Below, piece by piece: positions 12,359 to 53,108 of a stretch of DNA of 64,000 nucleotides. The DNA lies in contig JAAETJ010001012.1 of the NCBI GenBank assembly GCA_024228495.1, forward strand, positions 1 to 64,000. The letters are read 5' to 3'. Both the position numbers and the translations under genes were made by a program. How positions within the stretch are numbered: position 1 is the stretch's first letter; every line of letters starts with the position of its first letter. A model generated the notes under the pieces. That model was not told where the DNA came from. It ran no database searches and saw only the letters and a list, made by a program, of their open reading frames with translations. The stretch comes from a bacterium. GTDB lineage: Bacteria; Pseudomonadota; Alphaproteobacteria; Rhizobiales; JAKIUO01.

Positions 12359-12512
12359 ACAAAATCTCCTGCGCGGTGAGCAGAAAAGGGCTAACCCCTT
12401 TCAACCCCGTTTTAAGTGATGGGGATTGGGGACAAGTCCCCAACACTATCCGTGAGGATTTTTCCTAATCGCAATGAGTGCAAGGTTGCGATTAAGTGTT
12501 AGGAATTCTGGT

Positions 12513-13355
12513 ATGAGGTTTTTGATAAAGGGGTTTTTTCTAACCGCTGTGCTTGTCATGGGCGCAACTATTGCGCTGCCATTGCTACCCGGTGGTCAGC
12601 ATTTTCTTGATCGTGTTGAGCGCAAGGCCCGCATGGGATTGCATCAGGTGTTTTATCGTTGGAACAGACCCCTGCCTACAACCCCTCGCTTGAAAAAACT
12701 AAAAGCACGATTGAACTATCAGGGGCTCGAACTTGGCGCACCGATCTTCATGCGCATTTTCAAAAAAGAAGCCAGGCTGGAAATCTGGATCAAGGATAAA
12801 AAAAGCTTCAAGCGGTTTGCCAGCTATCCGATCTGCTATTATTCGGGGCGCCTTGGTCCCAAACAAAAACAAGGCGACCGGCAAGCGCCCGAAGGCTTTT
12901 ATAGCGTCTCCAAGCACCAGCTCAATCCCAATTCGCGCTGGCATCGCTCCTTCAATCTTGGCTATCCCAATCTGTTTGATCGCTCGCACAAACGCACCGG
13001 CAATTATTTGATGGTGCATGGTGGCTGCTCGTCAATTGGATGCTATGCCATGACCAATGATGTCATTGACGAAATCTGGACCATCATCACGCAAGCCCTC
13101 AGGCACAGCCAGCCGCGCTTTGCAGTGCATGTCTATCCGTTCAAAATGAGCCAGCACAATATGAAGCGTTATCGCAAAAACAAATGGCATTCGTTCTGGA
13201 AAGACTTGCAAAAAGGCTATGATCTGTTCGAGCAGACCAAAGTGCCTCCCAAAGTCAGCGTCTGCAAGGGCCGCTATCAAACAAGCCCGGGGCGCAAGGG
13301 ATCAACTGGCAACGCCGCCCTTCGCAAACAATGTGTGCGAGAAGTAAGGCTATAA
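12513..13355 (+). CDS. L,D-transpeptidase family (YafK-like)
   Basis: FMRIFKKEARLEIWI...GPKQKQGDRQAPEGFYSV...LMVHGGCSSIGCYAMT; start at MRFLIKGFF (signal/TM). Confidence 0.85.
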   Translation: MRFLIKGFFLTAVLVMGATIALPLLPGGQHFLDRVERKARMGLHQVFYRWNRPLPTTPRLKKLKARLNYQGLELGAPIFMRIFKKEARLEIWIKDKKSFKRFASYPICYYSGRLGPKQKQGDRQAPEGFYSVSKHQLNPNSRWHRSFNLGYPNLFDRSHKRTGNYLMVHGGCSSIGCYAMTNDVIDEIWTIITQALRHSQPRFAVHVYPFKMSQHNMKRYRKNKWHSFWKDLQKGYDLFEQTKVPPKVSVCKGRYQTSPGRKGSTGNAALRKQCVREVRL

Positions 13356-18489: not shown

Positions 18490-18981
18490 TTAGTTGGCTT
18501 TTGGTGCCGGAGCAGGTGCCGGAGCAGGTGCTGCAGCTGCAGGAGGAGCGACTGGTGCAGGTGCGCCATAGCCGTAAGGAGCATAACCATAAGGTGCGCC
18601 ATAGCCATAAGGTGCGCCATAGCCATTGTAGCCATTGTAGCCATTGTAGCCATTGTAGCCATTGTAGCCATTGTAACCGTTATAGCCAGAGCCAGAGCCA
18701 TAACCACGATAGCCATTGTAGCCGTTGCCTGCACCGCGTGCATTACCATTGCCCGAGAAGCCAAAGCTGAAGCCTCCATTTGCATTTCCTGAACCGTTGC
18801 CAGTACCCCAACCAGAACCATCGCCAGCACCATAGCCACGACCGTTGCCCCAGCCATTGTTGTAACCATTGTTGTAACCATTGTTACCCCAACCCCAAGC
18901 ACTTGCGCCACTAGTTACAAGAACAGTGCTACCAAGTGCGAGTACACTGGCAACCAGTGCAGATTTCATAATATTTTTCAT
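18490..18981 (-). CDS. Secreted Gly/Asn/Tyr-rich repeat protein, candidate sulfur globule protein
   Basis: MKNIMKSALVASVLALGSTVLVTSGASA signal peptide, then WGWGNNGYNNGYNNGWGNGRGYGAGDGSG...FSFGFSGNGNARGAGNGYNGYRGYG...(YNG)7...GAPYGYGAPYGYAPYGYGAPAPVAPP; gaggag RBS before ATG at 18981. Confidence 0.65.
   Translation of the reverse strand: MKNIMKSALVASVLALGSTVLVTSGASAWGWGNNGYNNGYNNGWGNGRGYGAGDGSGWGTGNGSGNANGGFSFGFSGNGNARGAGNGYNGYRGYGSGSGYNGYNGYNGYNGYNGYNGYNGYGAPYGYGAPYGYAPYGYGAPAPVAPPAAAAPAPAPAPAPKAN
18622..18684. repeat. 9-bp tandem repeat (gccattgta x6 plus one degenerate unit) encoding YNG
   Basis: Six perfect consecutive gccattgta units followed by accgttata. Confidence 0.95.
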
Positions 18982-19264
18982 TGTCTTTGATCTCCTCATA
19001 CTATTGTTCCATAGATGCATGGGACATCTTTTCACGGAACGATTACTACTGAGATAAATTCTATACTTATATAGCAGAATATTCAAACGTTATGTTATAC
19101 TGCGACAATAAGTGACATTATAACGGCTTTTTCTCATGTACATGTTTTTCGAATATAAGAATTAAGGCATCCCGTAAAAAACGTTTTACAAATCACAGAA
19201 ATTACGGAAAAAACAGTGACAGTAACCGAATTAATCGCAATTTGTCAAGCATGGGTATAGTCTC

Positions 19265-19384: not shown

Positions 19385-20044
19385 ACCGAATAGCGCGGCG
19401 ACATCCCTGTCTTTTTGCAAGAGAGCAAGGGCGGCGTGATAGTTCATGATCATTTCAGGCCCTATTATAAATAGTTCGAGGAAATGTTGCACGCTTTGTG
19501 TAACGCCCATCATCTGCGCGAACTCAAGGCCTTGATAAAACATGATAAAGAAACCTAGGCGAGCGAGATATATCAGTTGCTGATATCGGCAAATATGTTC
19601 ATAAGACAGGCCAAAGAGAAGGGTTTGCATGCGCTTTATCCGCCAATTTCGCGGTGTATTTTTGAGCTTTACGATAATATCATGCAGACCGGCCTTGTTT
19701 TTCATCGGTCATTGCCGCCGCTTGAGAAAAGCAAAAGGGGCGGAAGAGAAAAGCGCCGCCCCGGTCATAATTTGCTGCGCCGTTTGCGCGATTTCAATAT
19801 GGACGTGCTGCGCTTTGCCGAGGATTTTGCCGTGCCATTTACCAATAATCTGGCTGAGCAGGATATTCGCATGATGAAGGTGCGGATGAAAATATCCGGC
19901 AGCTTTCGATCCGCAAAAGAGGCGCAGATTTTCGCCACCGTGCGTTCGATAATCTCCACCACCATAAAACAGGCCTGGAATATCCTTGCAACCCTGTCAG
20001 CAAAACCGGATGGTCTCATTCAGGAACTGAGAACTGCGGGCTAG
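19385..20044 (+). pseudogene. IS66-family transposase remnant (C-terminal)
   Basis: LLQESKGGVIVHDHFRPYYK*FEEMLHALCNAHHLRELKALIKHDKET*... then FAVPFTNNLAEQDIRMMKVRMKISGSFRSAKEAQIFATVRSIISTTIKQAWNILATL. Confidence 0.8.
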
Positions 20045-29187: not shown

Positions 29188-31026
29188 ATGGACCTGATCA
29201 GAAAGCGGCAAGCCAATAATATTCGGGCGCGGTATAACTGTGCCGGACTTCTCACTGCTTATTGTCTGTTTGCCCTGTTCACCTCGCTTCCCTCACAATC
29301 TGCCAACCGCGCACAAAATGCCCTGTCCCAGCAGACCGCAAACTTGCCGGCGCTGGACCAATCACCAAAAATTCAGACAAAAAATACCGGCAAGTGGTGG
29401 CAACAGCATCAAGAATTAGCTTTTTTGCATGAAAAGTGGTGGCGGCGCCATTATCCGGTCAAAATGAACGAGACTGCAAAAGCGCCCGCTCAAAAGGACA
29501 AGGCCCAGTTCAAACTGGCCGCTGCCTCAAAGATTGAGCCAACACCCAAACCAGCGAACAAACCTGCAAGCGCCGAAAAACAAACAGCACCACGCACCAA
29601 AGCACCGATAAACACAAAGGTCAAAGCGCCCATCAAGGCCAAGGCCAAACCAGCCGCCCCCGTAAAACTTGCCGCAAACAAACCAAAGCGTGACGTCATC
29701 GCGTCCCCGGCTCTATTGCCAAGCACTGACACGGCCTTGCCCTCGCAAAAACCCCTCATATTGGCAAAAGTGCGACCGCCTGCCAAAATCGCGTTAGCCA
29801 ACCTCTCTCCCCTACCCGCTTCCCTCCTTGGCAATATCGCAGTTAATATCGCCAAACAACCGAACAGCGATTACGAATCTTTGCTGCCTGCCTTCATCAA
29901 AAAAGCCATCAACTCTCATGATAAGCGTGCCGCCATTAAACCCGAAGCAGCTCATTGCGTCGCTGACAATATTGCAGGCTGGTCCGGTATAAAGCTGTTG
30001 CCGCATCACGTGGAATTACTCAAAAAAACCAGCTCCACACCCTCGCAGGTTTCGCTCGCGCTCTCAGCTCGTTTGAACATGGGTGGATTTACGGCCGGCT
30101 CAGAGATTTTCATGCGGATCTTCAAGGACCGTTCAGAACTTGAAGTCTGGTTAAAAAAGGGCGAGCGCTATGCGCTTTACCACACCTATAAAATTTGCCG
30201 CTGGTCAGGATCGTTTGGACCCAAGCTCTACGAAGGAGACAAGCAGAGTCCCGAAGGTTTCTATATCGTCAACCGGCAATTGTTCAAGCGCCCCAGCTGG
30301 AAATGGAAAGGCAGTTTTTCTCTGGGCTATCCCAATGCCTATGACAAGCTGCACGGTCGTACCGGTTCGCTGATCCTCGTGCATGGCGGCTGCACCTCTT
30401 CTGGATGTTTCGCCATGACCGACCCAGTGATCAATGAGGTTTACGAGCTGGCACAACTGGCCCGTGACAATGGCCAAAAGAAATTCAGCGTCCATGTTTA
30501 TCCGTTCAAGCTCACCACTGCCAATCTTGCCAAACACAAACACAGCCCATGGAAGCCATTCTGGAACAATCTCAAAGAAGGCTATGATCTATTTGAAAAA
30601 ACGGGCTTGCCGCCAAGAGTGCGTGTTTGCGACAAGCGCTATGTCTTCGCGCCAAATGGAGTTGATCGGGTCGGTGCTGGCTGGTCAGGCAAAGGATGTT
30701 ATGGGTTGGCGGCCTATATTCAGGGCTGGAAACCCGCCAGCCGTTACGCAAGCAAAAACATGGGCAAACGAGCCAGGCGTGCCGCCCGCAAAACCCGCAG
30801 AGCCGGAGTCCGGTCTCGCTGCAATCTCAATCGGGCCAGTTGCCGTAAATTTGTCGCTCTTAAACGCAATAAATCAAGAAAACGCCGCGCCAAATCGAGC
30901 AAGAGAAAGCGCCTCAGCAAAAAACTGCGCCTGGCTGCCAAGCGTCGCGCTACCATGCAACGCGCCAGAACCATCGGTCGCATGCAAAAAAAACGAGCGT
31001 TCAAATCGAATGGCGGCAATTCTTAA
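29188..31026 (+). CDS. L,D-transpeptidase (YafK-like) with Ala/Lys/Pro-rich linker and strongly basic C-terminal tail
   Basis: FMRIFKDRSELEVWL...GPKLYEGDKQSPEGFYIV...LILVHGGCTSSGCFAMT; tail RARRAARKTRRAGVRSRC...KRNKSRKRRAKSSKRKRLSKKLRLAAKRRA. Confidence 0.85.
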   Translation: MDLIRKRQANNIRARYNCAGLLTAYCLFALFTSLPSQSANRAQNALSQQTANLPALDQSPKIQTKNTGKWWQQHQELAFLHEKWWRRHYPVKMNETAKAPAQKDKAQFKLAAASKIEPTPKPANKPASAEKQTAPRTKAPINTKVKAPIKAKAKPAAPVKLAANKPKRDVIASPALLPSTDTALPSQKPLILAKVRPPAKIALANLSPLPASLLGNIAVNIAKQPNSDYESLLPAFIKKAINSHDKRAAIKPEAAHCVADNIAGWSGIKLLPHHVELLKKTSSTPSQVSLALSARLNMGGFTAGSEIFMRIFKDRSELEVWLKKGERYALYHTYKICRWSGSFGPKLYEGDKQSPEGFYIVNRQLFKRPSWKWKGSFSLGYPNAYDKLHGRTGSLILVHGGCTSSGCFAMTDPVINEVYELAQLARDNGQKKFSVHVYPFKLTTANLAKHKHSPWKPFWNNLKEGYDLFEKTGLPPRVRVCDKRYVFAPNGVDRVGAGWSGKGCYGLAAYIQGWKPASRYASKNMGKRARRAARKTRRAGVRSRCNLNRASCRKFVALKRNKSRKRRAKSSKRKRLSKKLRLAAKRRATMQRARTIGRMQKKRAFKSNGGNS

Positions 31027-51188: not shown

Positions 51189-53108
51189 TTACTTTTTGGC
51201 TTCTTTGGCCTTGATGTCTTTGAGGCCTTTATCTTCCATTTCGTCTTTTTCACCGACGAGATGATACAAAGGTGCTTTTTCCATCGTGTATTCACCTGTT
51301 TTGGGATCTCGGCGAGAAACGGTCAGCACATGCCAATCTTCATCGTCCAACTTCATGTGGTCTCCACGATAATAGTAGCCAGGCCAACGAGTTTCCTTGC
51401 GGAACAGCGTATGCTGGAAGACAGATTCGGATGTCAAGAAGCGATGCTTCAATTCCCAAACACGCAACAACTCATGAATATCCTTGGCAGCCAGATTTTC
51501 AAAATCTTCTTCCATGATCTTCATTTTTTTGAGGCCAATGTTCAGCAGCTTCTCGTTGGTCATGTAGTTAACAGTCACGCCAGCACAATACTCATCCATA
51601 CACTTCTGCAAACGGTCAAGACCCTGCCTTGGATTAATGTAGTGTGGATTGACATCACCAGCGACAATTTCATTACGATAGATTTTATAATGTTCCATCG
51701 GCTTGAAGATCTCTTCACCTCGATTTCTGATCTGATCATCGGAGACTACGATACCGTCTCCTTTACCATCATCGATATACCTGCAAGCAGCTTTGGCAGC
51801 AAGACGGCCTTCTGTAAATGATCCAGATGAAAACGCATGAGGCGTTCCACCGACAGCATCACCAGCACCAAACAGACCTTCAACCGTCATCATGCGGTTA
51901 TAACCCCAGAAATATTCTGGTGGTGAAAGATCTTCTGGTCCACTGGCCCAGCCGCCACAACCTGTTGCATGGGAGCCCATGACATAAGGTTCTGATGTTG
52001 TCAGTTCAGGGTTTTCATATTTGGGGTCCACGTCTGTAGCAGCCCACAATACGGCCTGACCAACAGTCATGCCAAGGAAATTTTCCCAACCGACTTCCTC
52101 CAAATGCGGATCCTGGAACGAATGCATGGTGATCATGTGAATAGGACCGCGACCAGCCGCTACTTCGTTGATAAAGGCATGGTTACGCAAGCAGGTTGGA
52201 ATTGGCTTATGCGATACATGCTGCCCTTCCGTATCCAGATAGGCCTTGCCGACCATTTTGGAGAGTTCAGGGAACCATTTGGATTCATACTCTTCACCAT
52301 TACAGTTTTGAGTATAAGTTTTAAGATGCAGGAAGTAAGCTCCAACAGGGCCGTAACCGTCTTTAAAACGTGCAAGCACGATACGGTTTTCCATCTGAGT
52401 CATCTTGGCGCCAGCGCCAATCATAAGCCCGTAAGCTGAGCCTGACGACCAGGGAGCATACCAGACGCGACCAGCGCCCTCACCAACAGAACGTGGCTTA
52501 AAGATATTGGAAGCACCACCAGCACCACAAATAACGGTTTTGGATTTAAAAACGTGATAGTCACCGGTACGGACATTGAAGCCCACAGCACCCGCGACGC
52601 GGTTTTCTTTGGCATCATCCATTAGAAGATGAGTGACACAGATACGGTTGAAAACTTTGTCGGCTGATTTTTTTGCAGCTTCGGCAACAATCGGCTTGTA
52701 TGACTCACCATGAATCATGATCTGCCAACGCCCTTCACGCATGTAGTTACCCGTGTCAGGGTCTTTCATGATGGGTAAGCCCCACTCTTCGAACTGATGC
52801 ACGGCACTATCAACGTGACGGGCCATATCAAAGGCCAGATCTTCACGAACCATGCCCATGAGATCCATACGAGCATAGCGTACATGGTCTTCCGGGTTGT
52901 TCTCACCCCAGCGTGTACCCATATAGCAGTTGATCGCGTAAAGCCCCTGAGCAACCGCACCAGAGCGATCCATATTCGCTTTTTCAGCAATGACGATTTT
53001 CTTGTCTTTACCCCAGAACCTGGCTTCCCAGGCGGCACCTGTACCACCAAGACCGGCACCAGCGACCAGAATATCAATATCGTCTTCAATAATCGTTTTA
53101 TAAGCCAT
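51189..53108 (-). CDS. aprA: Adenylylsulfate reductase alpha subunit
   Basis: ILVAGAGLGGTGAAWEARFWGKDKKIVIAEKANMDRSGAVAQGLYAINCYMGTRWGENNPEDHVRYARMDLMGMVREDLAFDMARHVDSAVHQFEEWGLPI... is characteristic of dissimilatory AprA. Confidence 0.98.
   Translation of the reverse strand: MAYKTIIEDDIDILVAGAGLGGTGAAWEARFWGKDKKIVIAEKANMDRSGAVAQGLYAINCYMGTRWGENNPEDHVRYARMDLMGMVREDLAFDMARHVDSAVHQFEEWGLPIMKDPDTGNYMREGRWQIMIHGESYKPIVAEAAKKSADKVFNRICVTHLLMDDAKENRVAGAVGFNVRTGDYHVFKSKTVICGAGGASNIFKPRSVGEGAGRVWYAPWSSGSAYGLMIGAGAKMTQMENRIVLARFKDGYGPVGAYFLHLKTYTQNCNGEEYESKWFPELSKMVGKAYLDTEGQHVSHKPIPTCLRNHAFINEVAAGRGPIHMITMHSFQDPHLEEVGWENFLGMTVGQAVLWAATDVDPKYENPELTTSEPYVMGSHATGCGGWASGPEDLSPPEYFWGYNRMMTVEGLFGAGDAVGGTPHAFSSGSFTEGRLAAKAACRYIDDGKGDGIVVSDDQIRNRGEEIFKPMEHYKIYRNEIVAGDVNPHYINPRQGLDRLQKCMDEYCAGVTVNYMTNEKLLNIGLKKMKIMEEDFENLAAKDIHELLRVWELKHRFLTSESVFQHTLFRKETRWPGYYYRGDHMKLDDEDWHVLTVSRRDPKTGEYTMEKAPLYHLVGEKDEMEDKGLKDIKAKEAKK

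Follow-up and report, generated by a model that had tools for sequence, protein, structure and literature searches.

The question raised by this locus is whether a small, probably secreted repeat protein, encoded in a 64,000-nucleotide stretch of an alphaproteobacterial draft genome (the window, meaning that whole stretch), forms the envelope of stored sulfur globules. An earlier note made from the letters alone had proposed a sulfur globule envelope protein (Sgp) here, and with it extracytoplasmic sulfur storage. The gene, its family, the sulfur-oxidation genes of the genome and the neighbourhoods of related genes were compared.

The sgp-like gene and its surroundings

The sgp-like open reading frame is intact and runs on the minus strand from an ATG at 18981 to a stop at 18490 over 163 codons. 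The earlier note had described a signal peptide followed by Trp/Gly/Asn/Tyr repeats, and both the reading frame and every repeat string quoted were recovered at this place. The N-terminus of the 163-aa protein, MKNIMKSALVASVLALGSTVLVTSGASA, looks by eye like a typical signal peptide, and the signal peptide layout is the same in all aligned homologues. It is followed by the W/G/N/Y repeats, the GGFSFGFSGN core, an (NGY)n array and the Pro/Ala tail, in this order. Gly accounts for 31% of the mature protein, followed by Asn, Tyr, and Ala with 16, 15, and 14%, respectively. The DNA holds in-frame tandem repeats with 12- and 18-bp units besides a 9-bp unit. The features are as follows:

18490..18981, minus strand: sgp-like gene, 163 aa, with signal peptide, W/G/N/Y repeats, F-x-F/M-x-F-S-G core and Pro/Ala tail
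18898..18981, minus strand: predicted Sec signal peptide, residues 1-28 (...SGASA/WGWG), by eye
18748..18777, minus strand: conserved core GGFSFGFSGN (residues 69-78), which corresponds to G-D/N-F-S-M-N-F-S-G-R/N of other Sgps
18620..18688, minus strand: NGY repeat array, 9-bp DNA unit repeated 7.7 times
18493..18564, minus strand: Pro/Ala-rich C-terminal tail ending in KAN, including a 12-bp repeat at 18503-18531
18992..18996, minus strand: AGGAG, 10 nt upstream of the ATG and likely the ribosome-binding site
19577-20044, plus strand: IS66 transposase fragment (C-terminal part), ending about 0.6 kb upstream of the sgp-like gene

The next downstream neighbour is a gamma-glutamyltransferase gene on the plus strand, convergent with the sgp-like gene. 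Since this gene and the IS66 fragment are both unrelated to sulfur, the sgp-like gene stands alone, and it lies away from the Sgp cluster found on contig C587. Expression is not assured given this solitary position beside an IS66 remnant, and a promoter and terminator scan around the gene gave nothing clearly above chance. Elsewhere in the window, a second transposase-like frame was seen by eye at 456-1130. Two related-looking proteins at 12474-13355 and 29188-31026 (both plus strand) resemble L,D-transpeptidases of the YkuD type by eye, the latter with a long Lys/Ala/Pro-rich insert and a basic tail.

Sgp family membership and rival readings

The Pfam SGP model (PF17228) matched the window protein with 29.3 bits, a narrow pass over the cut-off of 26.7 in which no individual stretch was significant by itself. 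Eight local-composition shuffles and the reversed mature sequence served as controls, and 0 of 9 matched. The family search proposed in the earlier note gave a positive, marginal answer. NCBIfam returned no match for the protein, and a six-frame SGP search of the genome (E<=0.01) recovered two related genes and missed the window gene.

Because the Pfam match was marginal, a separate out-of-genus model was built. Its 12 Sgps came from eight genomes that do not belong to the genus, three of which fall in a different class of the phylum. Against this model the window protein scored 47.6 bits, a value reached by 0 of 2000 block shuffles that preserved composition and kept the signal peptide (means 2-8 bits, SD about 9, maximum 41.7). 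Its paralogues on C587 and C422 scored 53.1 and 60.4 bits, respectively, both above all of their own shuffles. The F-x-F/M-x-F-S-G core reappears in some form in the homologues. The likeness to Sgps exceeds amino-acid composition and, judged by these scores, the window protein genuinely belongs to the family, though as a divergent member.

The two clear paralogues are 78% (C587, over the matched part) and 60% (C422) identical to the window protein, and the C422 protein reached 40.6 bits against PF17228. Given several copies in the genome, the window copy would be one of several Sgps and probably overlaps with the others in function. A larger secreted Gly/Gln-rich protein apparently lies in two parts on C212 and C587, the assembly having broken at a repeat, and the suggested join of the two contigs is backed by the genomes G002 and G004. 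Two further matches were weak: one on C1186 was discarded as antisense inside a transposase-like frame, and one on C586 (E 0.25) contains a stop.

Low complexity leaves room for convergence, and a Gly/Asn/Tyr-rich secreted protein might resemble Sgps by composition only; the marginal Pfam score, spread over no single significant stretch, and the miss in the six-frame search fit such a case. It is nevertheless very improbable and largely refuted by the far lower scores of shuffles with the same local composition; moreover, the C422 paralogue of the same layout passes Pfam clearly, and the occurrence of the family tracks dsr. Just as improbable is a decayed or silent copy disrupted by upstream transposition, to which the nearby IS66 fragment (19577-20044, about 0.6 kb upstream) and the chance-level number of promoter-like sites would point, but the frame is intact, the ribosome-binding site is good and the repeats stay in frame throughout.

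Slightly better placed, though still unlikely, is a paralogue derived from Sgps that has taken on a different structural role outside the cytoplasm (in a surface coat, a sheath or adhesion) and leaves the globules to the C587 and C422 copies. The position outside the conserved Sgp cluster and beside the IS66 remnant, the strongly NGY-repetitive protein with slippage-type DNA repeats, and a poorer PF17228 match than that of C422 all speak for this role, whereas the signal peptide, core motif and Pro/Ala tail have all been retained and the score on the out-of-genus model is good. The reading of the window gene as encoding a sulfur globule envelope protein is preferred, with a probability of about 0.85.

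Sulfur-oxidation genes and distribution of Sgps

The draft genome holding the window (G000) comprises 5.1 Mb in 1254 contigs and is 99% complete with 4.5% contamination. As the assembly is fragmented, contaminated and oversized, some contigs may be misbinned. Its congeners range from 2.7 to 3.8 Mb, and repeats, insertion elements or mixed strains may cause the excess. The aprBA genes lie on the same contig as the sgp-like gene:

51189..53108, minus strand: aprA, APS reductase alpha subunit, 1058 bits to TIGR02061
53108..53587, minus strand: aprB, APS reductase beta subunit, 203 bits to TIGR02060
53650..54492, minus strand: aprM-like membrane protein, weak similarity to QmoC/TcuB

The last of these, which we take to be aprM from its position and general knowledge, is likely the electron partner of AprBA. 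On C240, dsrA, B, E, F, H, C, M, K, a dsrL-like gene and dsrJ form a single run (dsrABEFHCMKLJ), with two C-terminal cysteines spaced C-x10-C in DsrC. The joint presence of dsrEFH and dsrL marks the oxidative type of dsr, and by its gene content the operon on C240 is of this type. The soxX, soxA, and soxB genes were found on C216, and soxC was not detected in the genome, an absence from a draft assembly. SoxXA and SoxB without SoxCD, together with rDsr, are the usual gene set for passage through stored sulfur. Both dsr and sox genes, for which the earlier note had suggested looking, are present besides aprMBA, and Sgp, aprMBA, dsrABEFHCMKLJ and soxXAB together lend good genomic support to the inferred storage of sulfur outside the cytoplasm. 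A gutless-worm symbiont origin, suggested by the apr genes and the many contigs, was supported by nothing tested.

Stored sulfur globules in this organism we infer from its genes. The window Sgp would be exported to the periplasm, where sulfide or thiosulfate would be oxidised, and SoxXA and SoxB lacking the sulfane dehydrogenase SoxC would leave sulfane sulfur that gathers in globules. The Sgp repeats, flexible and rich in aromatic residues, Gly and Asn, may pack as a thin hydrophobic shell that keeps the sulfur accessible. Stored sulfur would later be activated, taken into the cytoplasm and oxidised to sulfite by DsrEFH/DsrC/DsrAB, and then by AprBA to APS and sulfate.

Among 61 relatives, PF17228 matched nine genomes, namely all five of the genus and those of four other families. 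A tenth Sgp genome, G052, carries a tandem Sgp pair (L119 2511-3590, minus strand) absent from the Pfam SGP results and located through a neighbouring gene for a DUF4412-like protein. DsrA or DsrB occurred in 16 of the 61 relatives (G001 and G004 being counted on DsrB only), and all 10 Sgp genomes are among those 16. The hypergeometric probability of this co-occurrence is 9e-8 when genomes are counted singly and 3e-5 when the genus is collapsed. The soxC gene was found in 0 of 10 Sgp genomes compared with 2 of 6 dsr-positive genomes without Sgp, a contrast too small for weight. The nearest homologues of the window protein are Sgp-type proteins in dsr-bearing genomes and not the Gly-rich surface proteins of non-sulfur bacteria that had been considered against the proposal.

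Across 386 genomes of the class, PF17228 matched the own genome only, and across 399 genomes of the phylum it matched seven, three of which belong to a single family in a different class and carry 3-4 copies apiece. The model is specific and not promiscuous. A weak SGP match in G612 was not accepted as an Sgp, as it sits in a 506-aa frame. A degenerate Sgp pattern searched across 85,000 named genomes was found only in two congeners, the uncultured MAGs JALXEI010000226.1 and JAJRQA010000195.1. At least six families of Alphaproteobacteria have Sgps together with rDsr, or seven counting G646 on Sgp alone. Sgps are best characterised in Gammaproteobacteria, and none from Alphaproteobacteria were described in the open-access papers found. 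Their occurrence with rDsr in Alphaproteobacteria allows genomes to be screened for periplasmic sulfur storage.

Sgp neighbourhoods and comparison with Allochromatium vinosum

The gene that comes 112 bp after the C587 Sgp gene encodes a secreted protein of about 240 aa. Its homologues, 24-87% identical, were found near Sgp genes in G002, G012, G015, G017, G051, G052, and G646 and in three genomes of another class (G448, G451, G454). The gap between the two genes is 72-641 bp in the Alphaproteobacteria and about 1.7-1.8 kb in the other class. Similarity to DUF4412 is weak and was detected in 5 of 11 family members (best 7.7e-6), and a single-sequence structure prediction was too poor to use (pLDDT 46). 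Exactly seven of the 61 relatives carry the DUF4412-like family, each time adjoining an Sgp gene. This link is partly circular because six of the seven genomes seeded the alignment; its non-circular part consists of the absence from the 54 other relatives and the new case of G052. The window's own copy lies outside this neighbourhood. The DUF4412-like gene was not found in three Sgp-bearing congeners (G001, G003, and G004), and therefore it is either not obligatory or missed by the drafts.

In G015, G052, G646, G448, G451, and G454, an RND exporter carrying a long basic tail is encoded upstream, and in G000, G004, and G012 the exporter instead adjoins a secreted Gly/Gln- or Gly/Asn-rich repeat protein. 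A ParA/MinD-type ATPase is encoded just downstream in G017, G646, G448, G451, and G454, followed in several genomes by a membrane protein. Instances of the locus are:

L013 1493-2876 and L016 634-3324, minus strand: RND exporter, Pro/Gly-rich proteins, Sgp, DUF4412-like protein
L060, L095, L097, L103, L104, L107, L108, L109, and L119: further instances, with a ParA-like ATPase in some lineages

The exporter at L016 634-3324 (minus strand) has a long tail rich in Lys and Ala, with a helix-hairpin-helix motif at its end, which is odd for an exporter. Small membrane proteins mark the downstream end of Sgp loci at L095 9462-10136 (plus), L108 4593-5189 (plus), and L119 291-881 (minus). The membrane proteins of the Sgp loci are of two apparently unrelated types, coiled-coil proteins in one class and look-alikes of 196-198 aa in G017 and G052.

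These neighbourhoods raise the possibility, which we put at a little under even odds, of a dedicated globule-building locus common to two classes of Pseudomonadota. It would comprise the RND exporter, one or more Pro/Gly-rich secreted proteins, Sgp and the DUF4412-like protein, joined in some lineages by the ParA/MinD-like ATPase and a membrane protein. Gene context suggests that the exporter and the DUF4412-like protein may deal with hydrophobic cargo or with assembly of the envelope in the periplasm, and that the ATPase and its membrane partner may place globules or share them between daughter cells. An open-access literature search gave no paper linking sulfur globules with ParA, and nothing relevant came up for globules combined with RND or gene-cluster terms. 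The neighbourhood yields named candidate genes for globule building, amenable to deletion in a tractable globule former, and the DUF4412-like protein predicts Sgp genes missed by Pfam, as in one genome here. The shared locus would be the novel, testable part, the window protein being a new Sgp within an already known family.

In A. vinosum, Sgp proteins form the coat of periplasmic globules whose sulfur is oxidised by rDsr (PMC10386293). Like SgpA, SgpB, and SgpC of that organism, the window protein is a small repeat protein, predicted to be exported, with several copies per genome, rDsr alongside and a PF17228 match, a likeness drawn by way of the Pfam model and of unnamed Sgps from a different class. 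It differs in being alphaproteobacterial and 163 aa long, with a long NGY array, high Asn and a low Pfam score. The gene for A. vinosum SgpD (Alvin_2515), a protein with regularly spaced prolines that is almost confined to Chromatiaceae, adjoins a gene for a hydrophobic/amphiphilic exporter (PMC10386293), which matches the RND exporter in the Sgp loci described here. Unlike SgpD, the window gene is of the PF17228 type. A counterpart to SgpD, compared by gene context and proline pattern alone, is the arrangement on C212/C587, where an RND exporter is followed by the secreted Gly/Gln-rich protein with P-x-W-x-K-K-P-type repeats.
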